Shown piece after piece: positions 16,656 to 24,813 of a stretch of DNA of 64,000 nucleotides. Origin of the DNA: Anaerolineaceae bacterium (GTDB taxonomy: Bacteria; Chloroflexota; Anaerolineae; Anaerolineales; UBA11657). The notes under the pieces are model-generated. The model saw only the letters and a program-made list of their open reading frames with translations. It made no database searches and had not been told where the DNA came from. The position numbers were made by a program, and so were the translations under genes. The stretch is from NCBI GenBank assembly GCA_003569365.1, contig BGOS01000027.1, positions 124,001-188,000 on the forward strand. The letters are read 5' to 3'. Numbering within the stretch: the first letter of the stretch is position 1; every line of letters starts with the position of its first letter.

Positions 16656-16725
16656 CAAGGCATTGCGGCCGGCTGCGGGCCGCAGCCTGGTTGGCAGCGC
16701 TAGCGGCCGCTGCGCAGCTTGCCAC

Positions 16726-16763
16726 TGCGCAAATACATGCCAAAAATGGCGGGTATTTGCGCA
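16726..16763. repeat. Perfect-armed inverted repeat with nested inner hairpin
   Basis: TGCGCAAATAC-at-GCCA-aaaa-TGGC-gg-GTATTTGCGCA: 11-bp perfect outer arms, 4-bp inner arms. Confidence 0.85.
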
Positions 16764-16767
16764 ATGC

Positions 16768-16796
16768 TTGACCACGCGCGCGCGCGCTGGTATCAT
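16768..16796 (+). promoter_or_regulatory. Promoter with (CG)n spacer
   Basis: TTGACC (16768-16773), 17-bp spacer acgcgcgcgcgcgctgg, TATCAT (16791-16796). Confidence 0.6.
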
Positions 16797-16805
16797 CCAA
16801 AAATC

Positions 16806-17057
16806 ATGGCGTCAAAAGATCAACTTATCAGGCAGCGCCGTGAACTTGAACAGCAGGTGCGCCAAATTGCGCGCTTGCAGCAGCTGCTGCGCGAAGAACT
16901 TTGGCAACTAGCTGGCCAGCGCAGTGTGCTGGCGGCCGAACACCCGCGCCATATCGGCCAGCTGGCCCAGAACAACCTGGACATCGACCATCTGTTGTCG
17001 CAAATTCAACAGCTAAAGGTCGTAGACGCCAAGTGCGCGGCGCAGCTCGCGCGCTAG
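16806..17057 (+). CDS. Small Gln/Leu/Arg-rich coiled-coil protein (83 aa)
   Basis: MASKDQLIRQRRELEQQVRQIARLQQLLREELWQLAGQRSVLAAEH...; heptad-like spacing; promoter just upstream. Confidence 0.6.
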   Translation: MASKDQLIRQRRELEQQVRQIARLQQLLREELWQLAGQRSVLAAEHPRHIGQLAQNNLDIDHLLSQIQQLKVVDAKCAAQLAR

Positions 17058-17169
17058 CATTCCGCCGCCCCAACCCGCCCCAACCCGCGCTAAGTTTCGC
17101 GCGGTTGTTTCGCCTGCACTGCATCACTGTGCTGAATGTTTTGTAATTTACCCCAAGGAGATTTATACA

Positions 17170-17958
17170 ATGCTTGACGGACTGCTCAACCTGCCGCCGT
17201 GGGCCATTTTCACGGTCAGTACGCTGCCATTCATACTTTTGTGCATGCTGATTGTGCCGCTGGTGGTGCGCAAGCGCATTGATGTGGGTGCCGGCGGCCT
17301 GGAAATGCTCAACCCGCTGCTCAACTTTCTATGCTATGCCTTCACGCTGCTGCTGGCTTTTGTGATGATCAACGTGTGGTCGGAGCAGGTTGCCAAGATG
17401 GAGACATTTGGCAATGAAATTTTATTTATTGAAGAATCGGTTATAGCAGTCAAGATTATGGATGCTGAGGCGCTGGGTGCTTATAAGCAGCATGTGGTGG
17501 AATATTTGGACATGGTGGAGCTGTATGAACTGGAGCAAAAACCGCCGGTGGGTGGCGCGCCGCAGGTGAATGAGAAGTTTGACGAGCTGGAAGCGATGGT
17601 GAATGCGGAAGAAGCCAAGATGGCGGAGCGGCCGGAAGAGGCTGGCGAGGCGGCAGTATTTTTTGATGAGACCGAGGCTTTCTTCAATGCGCGCGAAGAG
17701 CGCGTGAACCACGCACCACTGGAGCTGGATGGAATATTTGCGGGCATCCTGCTTGTGCTGGGGCTGCTAACCGTGCTGTGTGTGCTGCTAATGCCGGCTA
17801 CTTCTGCGCCGTGGTTAAAGTACGCACAATCGCTGAGTGTGGCCGTGCCGGTGGGCCTGATGCTGGGCCTGATACTGTATGTGGCCTCCAATAGTTTTAC
17901 GGCGCTGCCGGAAGAGCACCAGCTGGCGCGCATAGAGGCAGTGATTGCGGCTGAATAG
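17170..17958 (+). CDS. Predicted 4-TM membrane protein, DUF4239/bestrophin-like topology (copy A)
   Basis: Two N-terminal TM segments, acidic soluble insert, two C-terminal TM segments; strong RBS aaggag. Family name tentative. Confidence 0.65.
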   Translation: MLDGLLNLPPWAIFTVSTLPFILLCMLIVPLVVRKRIDVGAGGLEMLNPLLNFLCYAFTLLLAFVMINVWSEQVAKMETFGNEILFIEESVIAVKIMDAEALGAYKQHVVEYLDMVELYELEQKPPVGGAPQVNEKFDELEAMVNAEEAKMAERPEEAGEAAVFFDETEAFFNAREERVNHAPLELDGIFAGILLVLGLLTVLCVLLMPATSAPWLKYAQSLSVAVPVGLMLGLILYVASNSFTALPEEHQLARIEAVIAAE

Positions 17959-18212
17959 GCGCATTCCCGTCATACGGGGTGGCGGACAGCAGCGTTTTCT
18001 GCACCGGCACCCCTGCAGCTCTTGGCTGCGGAATAAGTCCGGCCACACGGTGCTGGTCTAATACACTGACACCTTGTACAAAAACCCCGGGCTTATAAAA
18101 AACAAATAGAGTCTGCAAGTCATGTGGGTAATATCTTTGAAGTGCCCGGCCATTGGAATGCCGGATAGACACTGCTGAAAACTAAATCGGACACTCAGGG
18201 AGGCTTTCTAAA

Positions 18213-19001
18213 ATGCTAAATTTACTACTGGATCTGCCGCCGTGGGCTATCTTCACGGTCAGCACCGTGCCATTCATAGTGTTGTGCCTGGTAATTGTGC
18301 CGCTGGTGGTGCGCAAGCGCATTGATGTGGGCGCAAGCGGCCTGGAAATGCTCAACCCGCTGCTCAACTTTCTATGCTATGCCTTCACGCTGCTGCTGGC
18401 TTTTGTGATGATCAACGTGTGGTCGGAGCAGGTTGCCAAGATGGAGACATTTGGCAATGAAATTTTATTTATTGAAGAATCGGTTATAGCAGTCAAGATT
18501 ATGGATGCTGAGGCGCTGGGTGCTTATAAGCAGCATGTGGTGGAATATTTGGACATGGTGGAGCTGTATGAACTGGAGCAAAAACCGCCGGTGGGTGGCG
18601 CGCCGCAGGTGAATGAGAAGTTTGACGAGCTAATAGCGATGGTGAATGCGGAAGAAGCCAAGATGGCGGAGCGGCCGGAAGAGGCTGGCGAGGCGGCAGT
18701 ATTTTTTGATGAGACCGAGGCTTTCTTCAATGCGCGCGAAGAGCGCGTGAACCACGCACCACTGGAGCTGGATGGAATATTTGCGGGCATCCTGCTTGTG
18801 CTGGGGCTGCTAACCGTGCTGTGTGTGCTGCTAATGCCGGCTACTTCTGCGCCGTGGTTAAAGTACGCACAATCGCTGAGTGTGGCCGTGCCGGTGGGCC
18901 TGATGCTGGGCCTGATACTGTATGTGGCCTCCAATAGTTTTACGGCGCTGCCGGAAGAGCACCAGCTGGCGCGCATAGAGGCAGTGATTAAGGCTGAATA
19001 G
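18213..19001 (+). CDS. Predicted 4-TM membrane protein, DUF4239/bestrophin-like topology (copy B)
   Basis: Near-identical paralog of 17170-17958 at constant offset 1043 bp; RBS gggagg. Confidence 0.65.
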   Translation: MLNLLLDLPPWAIFTVSTVPFIVLCLVIVPLVVRKRIDVGASGLEMLNPLLNFLCYAFTLLLAFVMINVWSEQVAKMETFGNEILFIEESVIAVKIMDAEALGAYKQHVVEYLDMVELYELEQKPPVGGAPQVNEKFDELIAMVNAEEAKMAERPEEAGEAAVFFDETEAFFNAREERVNHAPLELDGIFAGILLVLGLLTVLCVLLMPATSAPWLKYAQSLSVAVPVGLMLGLILYVASNSFTALPEEHQLARIEAVIKAE

Positions 19002-19277
19002 GCGCATTCCCGTCATACGGGGTGGCGGACAGCAGCGTTTTCTGCACCGGCACCCCCACAGCTCTAGGCTACGGAATAAGTCCGGCCACAAGGTGAGGGT
19101 CTGATACACTGACACCTTATACAATAACTGCCGGTTTTTTTAACACCAATAGACTTGCGCAGTTGTGTGTGCAATATCTTTGGAGTGGACGGCAATTGGA
19201 AACAGCCTCTATGAGGCTCTGTGCCTGTGCGCGTGGGCATGTGAAAACTGTGGCGCGGTGCGTCCGGTGGCAGCCTA

Positions 19278-19652
19278 ATGGCAGCCGGCGAAGTCTCCCC
19301 GCCAACCGTAGACAAGGCGAAGTTGGGGCGATTGCAGCGCGCCGATATGCTGAAACTGATGGAGGAGCGGCGCGCTGAGCTTCAAGCACAGAAGCAGCGG
19401 GCGCCCGAACATTTTGGGGTACTTGCGCGGCTCCTGCAGCAGGTTGACGCAGAGCTGCTCCAGATTTTCAAAAACCAGCAGAGCCCGGTGCACTCTGTTC
19501 AGCTTCAACAAGCCCAGTATAGAGATTCGCTGCTAAGATCCCGCGCGGAACTCTTAATGCATCTCACCCGGCAGGGCTTGTGTCCCAAGGAAGCCGACCG
19601 CAGCGCGCGGCAGATTGAAATAGAAGTGCAGAAACAGAAGTATCCCCGCTAA
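19278..19652 (+). CDS. Small coiled-coil protein (124 aa), paralogous to 19924-20388
   Basis: LARLLQQVDAELLQI ... YRDSLLRSRAELLMHLTRQG aligns by eye with LAELLRQIDAQLQLL ... QKDLLDKYREMLVQRLHAMG. Confidence 0.55.
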   Translation: MAAGEVSPPTVDKAKLGRLQRADMLKLMEERRAELQAQKQRAPEHFGVLARLLQQVDAELLQIFKNQQSPVHSVQLQQAQYRDSLLRSRAELLMHLTRQGLCPKEADRSARQIEIEVQKQKYPR

Positions 19653-19923
19653 GCCCGCGGTTGTTGCAGCAGCTTGCTAGCCCCACAAGGCTGCGGAAAA
19701 AGCTGCCCAAGCTCACAGCATTAGTTTAGGCAGCAGAAGCTGCGCGAACCTTCACATACGCGGGCACGCCCGCGGCTCTTGACTGTGGGCAACTGTTTGG
19801 CTACACTTTCGGTGCAATGGCAGTTGAAGGCTGGGTACCGGAAACGGTGTGCCCGCGCACAGGCGCCGCAAAAGTGTGCGGCGCGTGGCTGGCGGTGGTG
19901 TTCTAAGGGCGGGTGAGAACGCC

Positions 19924-20388
19924 ATGCAGCCCGAGCAAGACCATGCGGAGGAGCAGTGCTTGGAGCGCGCCCTCGAAGTTGCCCGGCTGGAGCAGCGGCG
20001 GACCGAGTTTGAAGAATTTCGGCAGGGGCAGCGTGAATTCATTGTCCGGCTGGCGGAATTGCTGCGCCAGATTGACGCGCAGTTGCAGCTGCTGTGGAGC
20101 TTAAAAAGCGAGGATATCGCGGGCATCACTCCGCAGATGCGGCGGCAGATTGCCGTGCAAAAGGATTTGCTGGATAAATATCGCGAGATGCTCGTCCAAA
20201 GACTCCACGCGATGGGCTGGGAAGGCTTGGAAGCCACGCGCACCTTTCGGCGCACCACGCAGCTAATTCAGGAAGCAAAATTTGCTGCGGCACACCCGCA
20301 GTTTTCTGGATATTTTTCCAGGCAGGCAAAACTGCGTGCCAAGTTGCCCACACTAAAGGCAGCAGCAATGGCTGCACGCGAACTCTGA
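19924..20388 (+). CDS. Coiled-coil protein (154 aa)
   Basis: MQPEQDHAEEQCLERALEVARLEQRRTEFEEFRQGQREFIVRLAELLRQIDAQLQLL...; internal ATG of ORF 19849-20388. Confidence 0.6.
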   Translation: MQPEQDHAEEQCLERALEVARLEQRRTEFEEFRQGQREFIVRLAELLRQIDAQLQLLWSLKSEDIAGITPQMRRQIAVQKDLLDKYREMLVQRLHAMGWEGLEATRTFRRTTQLIQEAKFAAAHPQFSGYFSRQAKLRAKLPTLKAAAMAAREL

Positions 20389-20818
20389 CATACGCGCGGG
20401 CGCGCCAGCTGTGCGCTGCGCAACCTCCAACATTCAACCTTAGCGGCGCTGGTCGAACTGCATACTTGCAGATCAGCGTGGCGCCGTGCCGGGTTGCCAC
20501 CCGCTGCAGGGGGGCAGCCGCGGGCAAGCCGCTTTGTGGCGCCCAAGGCCGGCAGCCGGGCACGCGGCACTGCGCAAGCGGGGTGCGGTCCGCGCAGGTT
20601 TTCCCCGTTAGCTCCCGGCTTTTCATCCCCCAGTGCCATTTGGCGCATTGCGCCACACCCTTGGCGCACCCGCTGGCTGGCCATTGCAAGCAGCCGGCAG
20701 CCGCAGCCCGCAAAGCGGGCGTAAAAATGCGCCATCCGCATGCGCCGCATCGCCTGCGGGCTAATGCCGCCCTGCCTGTTGCCGATACCCTCCATGCCAG
20801 CAACAAGGGCTGCGACAC

Positions 20819-21058
20819 ATGCAAAACTTCTACGAACTACAACGCCAAATTCTTGAAATCACCGAGCAGCAGTATGAGCTTTCTGTGCAATGGCGCCGGC
20901 TTTCTACGGAGCTAAACCAGCTGGAAGAGCATCAGCGCCAGCTGACCGCCGACCGCAATCGCTTTGATGCGCATCAGCGCCAGCTGGCGGCGCAGTGGCA
21001 ACAGCTTGCTGCGCAGCGCGTGCAGGCGGCAGCGCTTACAACTTCCGCCCCGCGCTGA
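20819..21058 (+). CDS. Small Gln/Leu/Arg-rich coiled-coil protein (79 aa)
   Basis: MQNFYELQRQILEITEQQYELSVQWRRLSTELNQLEEHQRQLTADRNRFDAHQRQLAAQWQQLAAQRVQ. Confidence 0.55.
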   Translation: MQNFYELQRQILEITEQQYELSVQWRRLSTELNQLEEHQRQLTADRNRFDAHQRQLAAQWQQLAAQRVQAAALTTSAPR

Positions 21059-21190
21059 GCGTGCCCGGCTTTTGCACTCGGCCCGGCCACATGCACCGCA
21101 CAGTGTTTGCGGCCCGGCAGTGCTGGGGCCGCCCGCAGCTAAACCCATGAAACAAAGCCAGCTTTCAAGCGCCGCAAGGCGAAGCGCCTG

Positions 21191-21358
21191 ATGCCAACCA
21201 AAGCCGACAAACTGCGCGAGTTTGATGCCCAGCAGCGCGCGATTAATGAACAGCGCGCGCAGCTTTCAGAGCACGAGCGCCAGCTATCCGAACTGCGCGT
21301 AGTGCTGGACGAGCAACTGCGCCAGCTGGAGCGGCAGCTCCGCCAGCTCGAAACCTGA
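21191..21358 (+). CDS. Small Gln/Leu/Arg-rich coiled-coil protein (55 aa), missing from the ORF track
   Basis: Direct translation: MPTKADKLREFDAQQRAINEQRAQLSEHERQLSELRVVLDEQLRQLERQLRQLET*. Confidence 0.5.
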   Translation: MPTKADKLREFDAQQRAINEQRAQLSEHERQLSELRVVLDEQLRQLERQLRQLET

Positions 21359-21650
21359 TGGCTGCAGCCGGGCCGGCTGCGAAGCCGGCAGCGGCGGCCG
21401 CCAACCCGCGCGCAAAGCGCAGGTATCTCCGCCGGGCCAGCATGCCGGCCCCCGCCAATTCTCAGCGCCCGCAATAGCGCAGTTTGACTACTCCGGCTGC
21501 GGACATTAATATTAAGCTTCAAACGATGCCAGAGATCAAATTGGAAAGCGCGGGTGAGGGCGCGGGCCGGGCGTGTAACTTGCTGCCCCTTGCGCGCTGC
21601 AGCCCAGCGGCAGGCCTTGTGCACTTACCGGCAAGTGCCGGGCCGGCATA

Positions 21651-22037
21651 ATGCCCAACAAAGAAGAATTGCTTGCCCACCAGGCCCGGCTGCTGGTGCG
21701 CCAGCAGCAGCTGGATGAGCTGCAGCAGCGCCAGTTGGCCGTGCAGCGCTACCCAACCGGCACGGACGGCTTGCTGGATGCGCAGCAGCAGCGCGAGGTT
21801 GAAGCGCAGCGCTACCAGCTTACCAAGCTGCAGCAGGCGGTTGAGGAGCAGCTTGGCCAGCTTACCCAGCACACCGGCGTCATCGACAATGAGCTGCGCC
21901 AGCTTGTGCAGCAGCAGCGCCAGCTGGATCTGCGCCGCGACCGGCTGGCCAGTGAGATAACCATGGTGGAAGCGCAGCGCGAACAACTTGAACAGCAGCG
22001 CGTGAAACTCAGCAAGGAGCGCGACCAGCTTACATAA
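21651..22037 (+). CDS. Gln/Leu/Arg-rich coiled-coil protein (128 aa)
   Basis: MPNKEELLAHQARLLVRQQQLDELQQRQLAVQ...LRQLVQQQRQLDLRRDRLASEITMVEAQREQLEQQRVKLSKERDQLT. Confidence 0.6.
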   Translation: MPNKEELLAHQARLLVRQQQLDELQQRQLAVQRYPTGTDGLLDAQQQREVEAQRYQLTKLQQAVEEQLGQLTQHTGVIDNELRQLVQQQRQLDLRRDRLASEITMVEAQREQLEQQRVKLSKERDQLT

Positions 22038-22304: not shown

Positions 22305-23027
22305 ATGGATATCAAATTTTCCCCGCTTGTGTACCGGATGCAGCCGTTATTGATGTTTGCCTGCGTGTCACTCTTGGTTATCGGCGTTGGCCGCACACCG
22401 CCGGGGGCCGGTGCCAGCGGCGGCCAGCCTTCCAATAACGGGCAAGGGCAGCGGCCGCCCGCGCCGGGAACCGTAGCCGGTGCGGATCGGCGGGCGCAGC
22501 CGCCACAGCCTGCCAACCGTCCCGCCCGCGGCGGAGATCAACAGCAACCGCCGCCCGCCGATGGCGCTGCCCAGGGTCCGGCAATTAGTTATCCGTTTGG
22601 ATACGCCGGGGCTTTTGCGCAGTATGCGGTGGTGGATCGGCCGGACAATGTGGCGCGCCTGATCTACATTCAGCGTGAAGCCGTGGCTGGCCTGCAGTCC
22701 GGCCGCCCGCTGCCAGAGGGCACAACGCTGGTGATTGAAGCGTACAACAGCAGCCCCGGCCCGGATGGCCGGCTGGTGCTTGGCGATCTGATCCCGTTCA
22801 TTCATGTGTCCCAGAAGATCGGCGGCAGGTGGCGCTTCGCATCATTTACGCCGGCGGGCACGCGTGCCCCGCGCGACCTGCCGGATGAGAATCCGCGCGC
22901 GTGCGCGGACTGCCACTCCGGCACGCGCGATTTTGTTTTTTCGCGCGCGCAGCTGGATGCCTTTGCAACGGCGCAAGTGCCGCAATATGTGGTGTGCGGC
23001 AAGCCGGGGCGCGATCCCTGCAACTAG
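22305..23027 (+). CDS. Cytochrome P460-like secreted/anchored c-type heme protein
   Basis: N-terminal TM; Pro/Gln-rich linker; WRFASFTPAGTRAP...NPRACADCHSGTRDFVFSR (CxxCH). Confidence 0.8.
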   Translation: MDIKFSPLVYRMQPLLMFACVSLLVIGVGRTPPGAGASGGQPSNNGQGQRPPAPGTVAGADRRAQPPQPANRPARGGDQQQPPPADGAAQGPAISYPFGYAGAFAQYAVVDRPDNVARLIYIQREAVAGLQSGRPLPEGTTLVIEAYNSSPGPDGRLVLGDLIPFIHVSQKIGGRWRFASFTPAGTRAPRDLPDENPRACADCHSGTRDFVFSRAQLDAFATAQVPQYVVCGKPGRDPCN

Positions 23028-23747: not shown

Positions 23748-24746
23748 TTAGTGCACTACATTCTTCCAACTGCGGCGCTGGCGCCGTTTGTTTCCATTGG
23801 CAGAAGTCACAAGGTTGTACTTCGGGCCATTGCGGTAGCCCCACTCGATTAGCGCATACGTGCCGCGGCCCACAAGCGCAAAGCGGTCGTCAGTAACCAG
23901 GCAGTTGTGCACGGTCGTCACCCGCGGCGTGCGTCCCCTAGATGAAACAATGCTGCCGGCAACCTCGGTAAAGTGCATGGGCCGGCCAGCTTTCGCGATC
24001 GTAATGTAGGCTTCGTCCCGCATGCCCCATGGCCGCGCCAAACGGGAGCTGTGGTGCCCAAACTCACCGTACGCATTCTCCACTAGTTCCAGCGAGCACT
24101 TATAGTAGCCAAGCAGTGCGGGCTTTGAAATTGCGCCAACGGGCTTGATGAATTTTGCCATGGCGCTAAAAAACTCGCGCTCCGGGTAGGCGCGCAGGGT
24201 AGCCTTGACGGTCTTTGCAAATGCGCCCAGCGCTTTTTCAACCGCTGTGTTATCTGTTCCCTTGTGATACCAACGCTCCGTGAACTTCCGATTTCTGGAG
24301 TAATGCCGGGCAAATGGCGCCAAGCGCAGCAAGAAAGTGCCGGCTTGCTTGCCGGCAACGCTGCCAAAAACCTCGGGGCTCTCCATGACTGAACCGCTGA
24401 GCACGCCGCCGTAGCGCAGCATCAGTTTTTCCAGCGCCGCAAATTGCGGCTTCAGCGCTTGATACTCCTCTGATTTGAGCATGGTCAGCACGCTCATATC
24501 CTCAATCTGGCGAATGCGCTCGCGCGTAAGACCCTCTTGCTGCCCGATGGCGTGCAGGGTGTGCGGCTCCGCGCCGAACAGGCCAAAGCGCCGCGCCATC
24601 ACCGAGCGCGAGCGCGGCTTAAGCGCGCGCATCAGCTTGTGGATTGTGTGGTCAAACTGCGTGGCGGTGACCACCCGCACAGCTTTTTTTGGTTTCGAAG
24701 CTGCTTGACTTTTCGGCTTGCTCACTTTCTTTTGTTTTGTAAACAT
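23748..24746 (-). CDS. Sigma-70 region 4-like HTH fused to HARE-HTH domain protein
   Basis: ARRFGLFGAEPHTLHAIGQQEGLTRERIRQIEDMSVL (R4-like); MRDEAYITIAKAGRPMHFTEVAGSIVSSRGRTPRVTTVHNCLVTDDRFALVGRGTYALIEWGY (HARE-HTH); RBS aaaaaggag. Confidence 0.85.
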   Translation of the reverse strand: MFTKQKKVSKPKSQAASKPKKAVRVVTATQFDHTIHKLMRALKPRSRSVMARRFGLFGAEPHTLHAIGQQEGLTRERIRQIEDMSVLTMLKSEEYQALKPQFAALEKLMLRYGGVLSGSVMESPEVFGSVAGKQAGTFLLRLAPFARHYSRNRKFTERWYHKGTDNTAVEKALGAFAKTVKATLRAYPEREFFSAMAKFIKPVGAISKPALLGYYKCSLELVENAYGEFGHHSSRLARPWGMRDEAYITIAKAGRPMHFTEVAGSIVSSRGRTPRVTTVHNCLVTDDRFALVGRGTYALIEWGYRNGPKYNLVTSANGNKRRQRRSWKNVVH

Positions 24747-24784
24747 GGTGGAAACTCCTTTTTCCAAAGTTGAATTATCAAGGC

Positions 24785-24813
24785 AGTGTATCAAAGACTT
24801 TTGGATTTGTCAG
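24785..24813 (-). promoter_or_regulatory. Promoter of the R4/HARE gene
   Basis: Minus strand CTGACA-17 bp-TACACT, 39 nt upstream of the ATG. Confidence 0.5.

Follow-up and report, generated by a model that had tools for sequence, protein, structure and literature searches.

Coiled-coil rich proteins that are restricted to single bacterial taxa have been described, e.g. the Ccrp proteins of Helicobacter pylori, while SlyX, ZapB, ZapG and YabA represent small coiled-coil regulators. Conserved orphan small proteins are likewise an already known kind. We analysed a 64-kb stretch of DNA, in the following called the window, which lies on contig C27 in a 2.63 Mb genome (G000, 95.5% complete). Within 5.2 kb it contains six small open reading frames (ORFs), starting at positions 16806, 19278, 19924, 20819, 21191 and 21651, as well as two ORFs of 262 aa. 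A first-pass annotation had listed these eight ORFs as an array on one strand, and all of them were found on the + strand at the given starts.

Four of the small proteins (16806, 20819, 21191 and 21651, the coil proteins) resemble the Ccrp type in that they are soluble, consist almost entirely of heptad repeats and are restricted to one lineage. They are, however, far shorter (55–128 aa), their genes form a row of four, and no sequence match was obtained. With SlyX, ZapB, ZapG and YabA they share size and coiled-coil character, and ZapG-like and YabA families appeared among the weak Pfam matches. Yet none of the small ORFs matched a profile of these regulators above the curated cut-off in NCBIfam or in Pfam (the latter scanned without 21191), and no division or replication gene was recognised nearby. 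The 262-aa proteins match the Bestrophin-like domain family PF14023 (formerly DUF4239): they score above its curated cut-off and have four predicted membrane segments with a soluble insert. They differ from the members of this family in the order by their divergence (about 25% identity over short stretches) and by their tandem arrangement with a homogenised core. What the first-pass annotation had taken for a single system is two parts lying side by side, an array restricted to one genus and an unrelated block in one species. The analysis thereby sets the coil genes apart from the adjoining block that made the whole resemble one system. It leaves a set of very short genes that are under selection and described by no protein family library, in a lineage whose members are known mainly through metagenomes.

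Conservation of the four coiled-coil genes

Orthologues were compared among three genomes in all, the genome of the window and two members of the same genus, G001 and G002, which are 68% and 75% complete. Seven further genomes belong to the same family. The one named public entry found to contain the 128-aa protein is an Anaerolineales (Chloroflexota) metagenome-assembled genome, isolate ZE-17mar17-73; its sample label also appears in a study of freshwater Planctomycetes (PMC6461901), which makes a lake origin likely. In G001 the orthologues of 16806, 20819, 21191 and 21651 follow each other in the same order within 1.9 kb and have identical lengths of 83, 79, 55 and 128 aa. G002 holds the orthologues of 21191 and 21651, again with identical lengths. 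Its contig stops just upstream, and the region preceding the array was not found in this incomplete genome.

The first gene (16806–17057, + strand, 83 aa, beginning MASKDQLI) shares 84% amino acid identity with its orthologue at L010:1722–1973 with a dN/dS of 0.17, and 26 of the 39 differences fall on third codon positions. For the second gene (20819–21058, + strand, 79 aa; orthologue L010:2357–2596) the identity is 95% and dN/dS 0.09. The third (21191–21358, + strand, 55 aa, MPTKADKL) is 96% identical in G001 and 84% in G002, with a dN/dS of 0.12, and the fourth (21651–22037, + strand, 128 aa, MPNKEELL) 86% and 63%, with a dN/dS of 0.38. All coding alignments are free of gaps; the three spacers contain between 4 and 34 gap columns at 69–81% identity. 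For the four genes combined, 62 of 104 differences are at third codon positions (p = 3.6e-8). This excess, together with dN/dS values of 0.09–0.38, indicates purifying selection. Most of the alternative frames of the four genes contain stops. For 21651 taken alone the codon-position signal is weaker (p = 0.066) and the antisense frame is open too; its sense frame is consistent with a length that is unchanged across all three genomes and with a dN/dS of 0.41 against G002 over residues 1–110. These data show that the four coil genes are truly protein-coding and are under purifying selection. The first-pass annotation had named loss of the ORFs or of their clustering in relatives, and a dN/dS near 1, as findings that would speak against it; the four coil genes are kept and ordered in G001, the last two also in G002, and their values lie below 0.4.

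A sigma-70-like promoter with an extended -10 element is predicted by consensus match upstream of 16806 (TTGACC-17-TATCAT, 16768–16796, + strand; TTGACT-17-TATGCT in G001). It terminates 9 bases 5' of the ATG, which suggests that the message may be leaderless. Another predicted sigma-70-like promoter, also a consensus match, lies upstream of 21651 (TTGACT-17-TAATAT, 21484–21512, + strand; TTGACT-17-TAATGT in G001). At both sites the 17-base spacing is unchanged in G001. Directly 5' of the 16806 promoter a near-perfect inverted repeat is found (16723–16766, TGCGCAAATAC...GTATTTGCGCA), which is not conserved in G001. For three small ORFs the start codon is embedded in TAATG or TGATG (19276–19280, 21189–21193 and 21649–21653), and a clear Shine-Dalgarno sequence is missing; no conserved frame was seen upstream that could account for these starts.

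Heptad repeats, relationships and distribution of the small proteins

Nine ORFs in the 64 kb contain 40 consecutive residues that lack proline and consist to at least 60% of Q, L, R and E. Five of these belong to the array; the remaining four are dispersed, with an overall content of only 0.32–0.40. The same-strand clustering of such ORFs that had been noted before is therefore not due to chance. The common N-terminus described for 16806, 21191 and 21651 was also recovered: the pattern [PA][TNSD]K[AED] follows the ATG in 3 of 1946 cases on both strands of the window, which are precisely these three ORFs. Since the pattern was composed after viewing them, this count is descriptive.

Heptad patterns had been attributed to all six small ORFs. 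Compared to shuffled sequences, the periodicity of hydrophobic residues is significant for 16806 (p = 0.014) and for 20819, 21191 and 21651 (p = 0.002 each), such that the attribution holds for these four but not for 19278 (p = 0.53) and 19924 (p = 0.076). In the coil proteins one heptad position is mostly hydrophobic (8/11, 9/11 and 7/8, with 12/12 for the long helix of 21651); the second core position is mixed. Conservation was no higher at core positions than elsewhere (36 of 46 against 225 of 286 invariant, p = 0.61), a comparison in which the orthologues may be too close to provide power. None of the four coil proteins has a membrane-like segment. An AlphaFold model of the 21651 monomer, built on three sequences, consists of a short helix (residues 4–33) and a long helix (44–127) with a pLDDT of 85 and a pTM of 0.47. 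The small proteins had also been described as mostly basic. This does not apply to the conserved four, whose net charges are +3, 0, -1 and -2; 19278 (+6) and 19924 (+3) are basic.

The similarity between 16806 and 21651 exceeds that of shuffles that keep the heptad phase (p = 0.002), and the two are detectably related. For 20819 and 21191, compared to the other coil proteins and to each other, the similarity was no better than in such shuffles (p = 0.055–0.84), and 19278 and 19924 had no detectable relationship to the four coil genes. Common descent of all four coil genes is plausible. The idea of a lineage-specific family thus stands in part: the four genes are conserved in the genus, under purifying selection and absent elsewhere as far as searched, but a single family of six members was not found.

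Similarity searches for further coil genes covered the genome of the window itself. Among 200 genomes of the order, the profiles of 21191 and 21651 matched convincingly in the three members of the genus alone, and among 61 genomes the 20819 profile did so in G000 and G001 only; for 16806 the search was confined to the genus. Weak matches of the 20819 profile in G002, G017, G031 and G056 (E 0.003–0.01), of 21651 in G052 and of 16806 in G002 were set aside as coiled-coil noise. Since coiled coils diverge fast, distant relatives of the four proteins could have been missed. No common neighbourhood was obtained when the array was sought at family level via the adjoining transporter gene.

In the protein family libraries no small ORF exceeded any cut-off of NCBIfam or, with 21191 left out of the scan, of Pfam. 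PADLOC gave no convincing match to an anti-phage defence model but weak coiled-coil matches to portions of long ATPases, which we dismissed as noise like those in PHROGs and NCBIfam. Sequence searches of the PDB returned no matches, and no RNA family was found in Rfam. The earlier statement that no described system with this architecture was recognised is supported.

The block with the bestrophin-like pair

In G001 the first base past the stop of the 16806 orthologue aligns to window position 20414, and the window sequence after 17058 is unaligned. The coil genes lie directly together there, and the ends of the block are clean. This junction (17058/20414) defines the 262-aa pair, 19278 and 19924 as one block of about 3.36 kb (17059–20413, + strand) that is present in the window and absent in G001. 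The two membrane proteins (17170–17958 and 18213–19001, both + strand) are 96% identical; copy 1 is preceded by the Shine-Dalgarno sequence AAGGAG. The first-pass annotation had regarded them as part of something undescribed. They belong to a known Pfam family, with a score of 42.1 bits against the PF14023 cut-off of 32 and residues 43–236 on profile positions 26–215.

Membrane segments are predicted near residues 15–39, 49–67, 189–207 and 221–246, which leaves an insert at 68–188 that is strongly acidic (29 D+E against 9 K+R). The basic residues of the protein are located in the TM1-TM2 and TM3-TM4 loops, such that an insert outside the cell would follow from the positive-inside rule. A weak point of this assignment is that the bestrophin homology could argue for another topology. 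An outside location speaks against an assembly of the insert with cytoplasmic coils.

Across the order, proteins of the PF14023 type are patchily distributed and occur in 19 of the 200 genomes (E <= 0.001). Within the taxonomic family the bestrophin-like protein is found in 1 of 10 genomes and is missing from the other nine. The patchiness and the lack in the rest of the family favour a gain of the block, which was thus probably acquired in this lineage; as the genomes of the relatives are incomplete, a loss is possible instead. A phage or plasmid origin is without support, as searches for plasmids, phages and viral contigs with the block and the coil proteins found nothing. The two gene copies are near-identical over about 700 bases (17306–18013 and 18349–19056), but their first 110 bases and their downstream flanks have clearly diverged. 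The simplest reading of this pattern would be an older tandem duplication, the core of which has been homogenised by gene conversion.

The remaining two genes of the block encode helical ORFan proteins, 19278 (19278–19652, + strand, 124 aa) and 19924 (19924–20388, + strand, 154 aa, with GTG at 19849 as a possible alternative start). At 30% identity (E 5.6e-5; shuffle p = 0.002) their sequences identify them as paralogues of each other, and both have a coding-like codon-position composition. No relatives were found in 299 genomes of the class. The monomer model of 19924 is a helical hairpin (helices 3–62, 70–123 and 125–153; pLDDT 79). A fold comparison gave 648 matches, of which none reached E <= 0.001; the top ones were generic hairpins, among them the inter-SH2 domain of PI3K p85. 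A promoter-like site belonging to 19924 is located at 19779–19807.

One system or two neighbouring parts

The data are best explained, as we hold with moderate confidence, by four genes for soluble, extended coiled-coil proteins that occur in one Anaerolineales genus as far as searched, and by an independently gained block. Judged from the gene order in G001, the comparison shows that the coil genes are independent of the bestrophin-like block. The coil set may have arisen through local duplication followed by divergence. The 3.36-kb block would then probably have been gained inside the array in this species, and the coil genes would have no need of it. Most probably the coil proteins form oligomers, each with itself or with the others, and would do so via the single heptad position that is rich in Leu/Ile/Val. 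Such cytoplasmic rods may have a structural or an adaptor role. We regard it as improbable that these four proteins of the genus jointly build a dedicated heteromeric scaffold or filament of coiled coils that differs from all those described in bacteria; if they do co-assemble, they would exemplify in compact form a coiled-coil scaffold restricted to one taxon.

The original proposal was a six-member system around the membrane pair, in which all small proteins assemble with the acidic domain to an envelope or stress complex. The location of all eight ORFs on one strand within 5.2 kb, the strongly acidic insert (29 D+E, 9 K+R) and the basic character of 19278 (+6) and 19924 (+3) are in line with it. 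In G001, however, the four coil genes persist without the block, and hence an assembly of coils and acidic domain is not supported. The search found the membrane protein in none of the family's other genomes, the charge of the conserved coils is close to neutral, and the basic loops would by the positive-inside rule place the insert outside the cell. With nothing linking the insert to the coils, we consider such a complex very unlikely. A unit could alternatively comprise only the block, with 19278 and 19924 partnering and travelling with the bestrophin-like pair and the coil genes as bystanders. All four genes lie within the same block, and the ORFans are paralogous to each other as are the two membrane proteins. 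Still, the combination was found in no second genome, such that the co-occurrence is one case, and 19924 has its own promoter-like site. We consider this reading possible but doubtful.

Rather than scaffolds, the coil proteins could be short adaptors or inhibitors, with a coiled coil in some larger protein as their partner, e.g. of SMC-like, divisome or motility type. Short coils such as the 55-aa 21191 would suit this role, and the weak profile matches were to SMC and other long coiled-coil proteins. Any coiled coil would give such matches, though, all of which were far under the curated cut-offs, and the neighbourhood is without a partner gene; we rate such a pairing as rather unlikely. It is extremely improbable that the small ORFs are open by chance, as frames within intergenic DNA that is GC-rich and CAG/CTG-rich. 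While the open antisense frame of 21651 and its weak individual codon-position bias would fit, the four coils have the third-position excess, sense dN/dS below 0.4, preserved lengths and gap-free alignments against it; for 19278 and 19924 it is paralogy and codon composition alone that speak against chance.

Upstream of the array a gene for a YHYH-domain protein (PF14240, 14917–16014) with a long Pro/Thr/Ala/Gly/Ser-rich linker is conserved in G001. Just 3' of the array follows a cytochrome P460 domain gene (22305–23027), which is present in G002 and missing at the same place in G001. Further downstream a 348-aa protein is encoded on the - strand (23748–24794). Its residues 34–109 match the C-terminal part of sigma-70 alone (best E 9e-15), such that it is not a full sigma factor.
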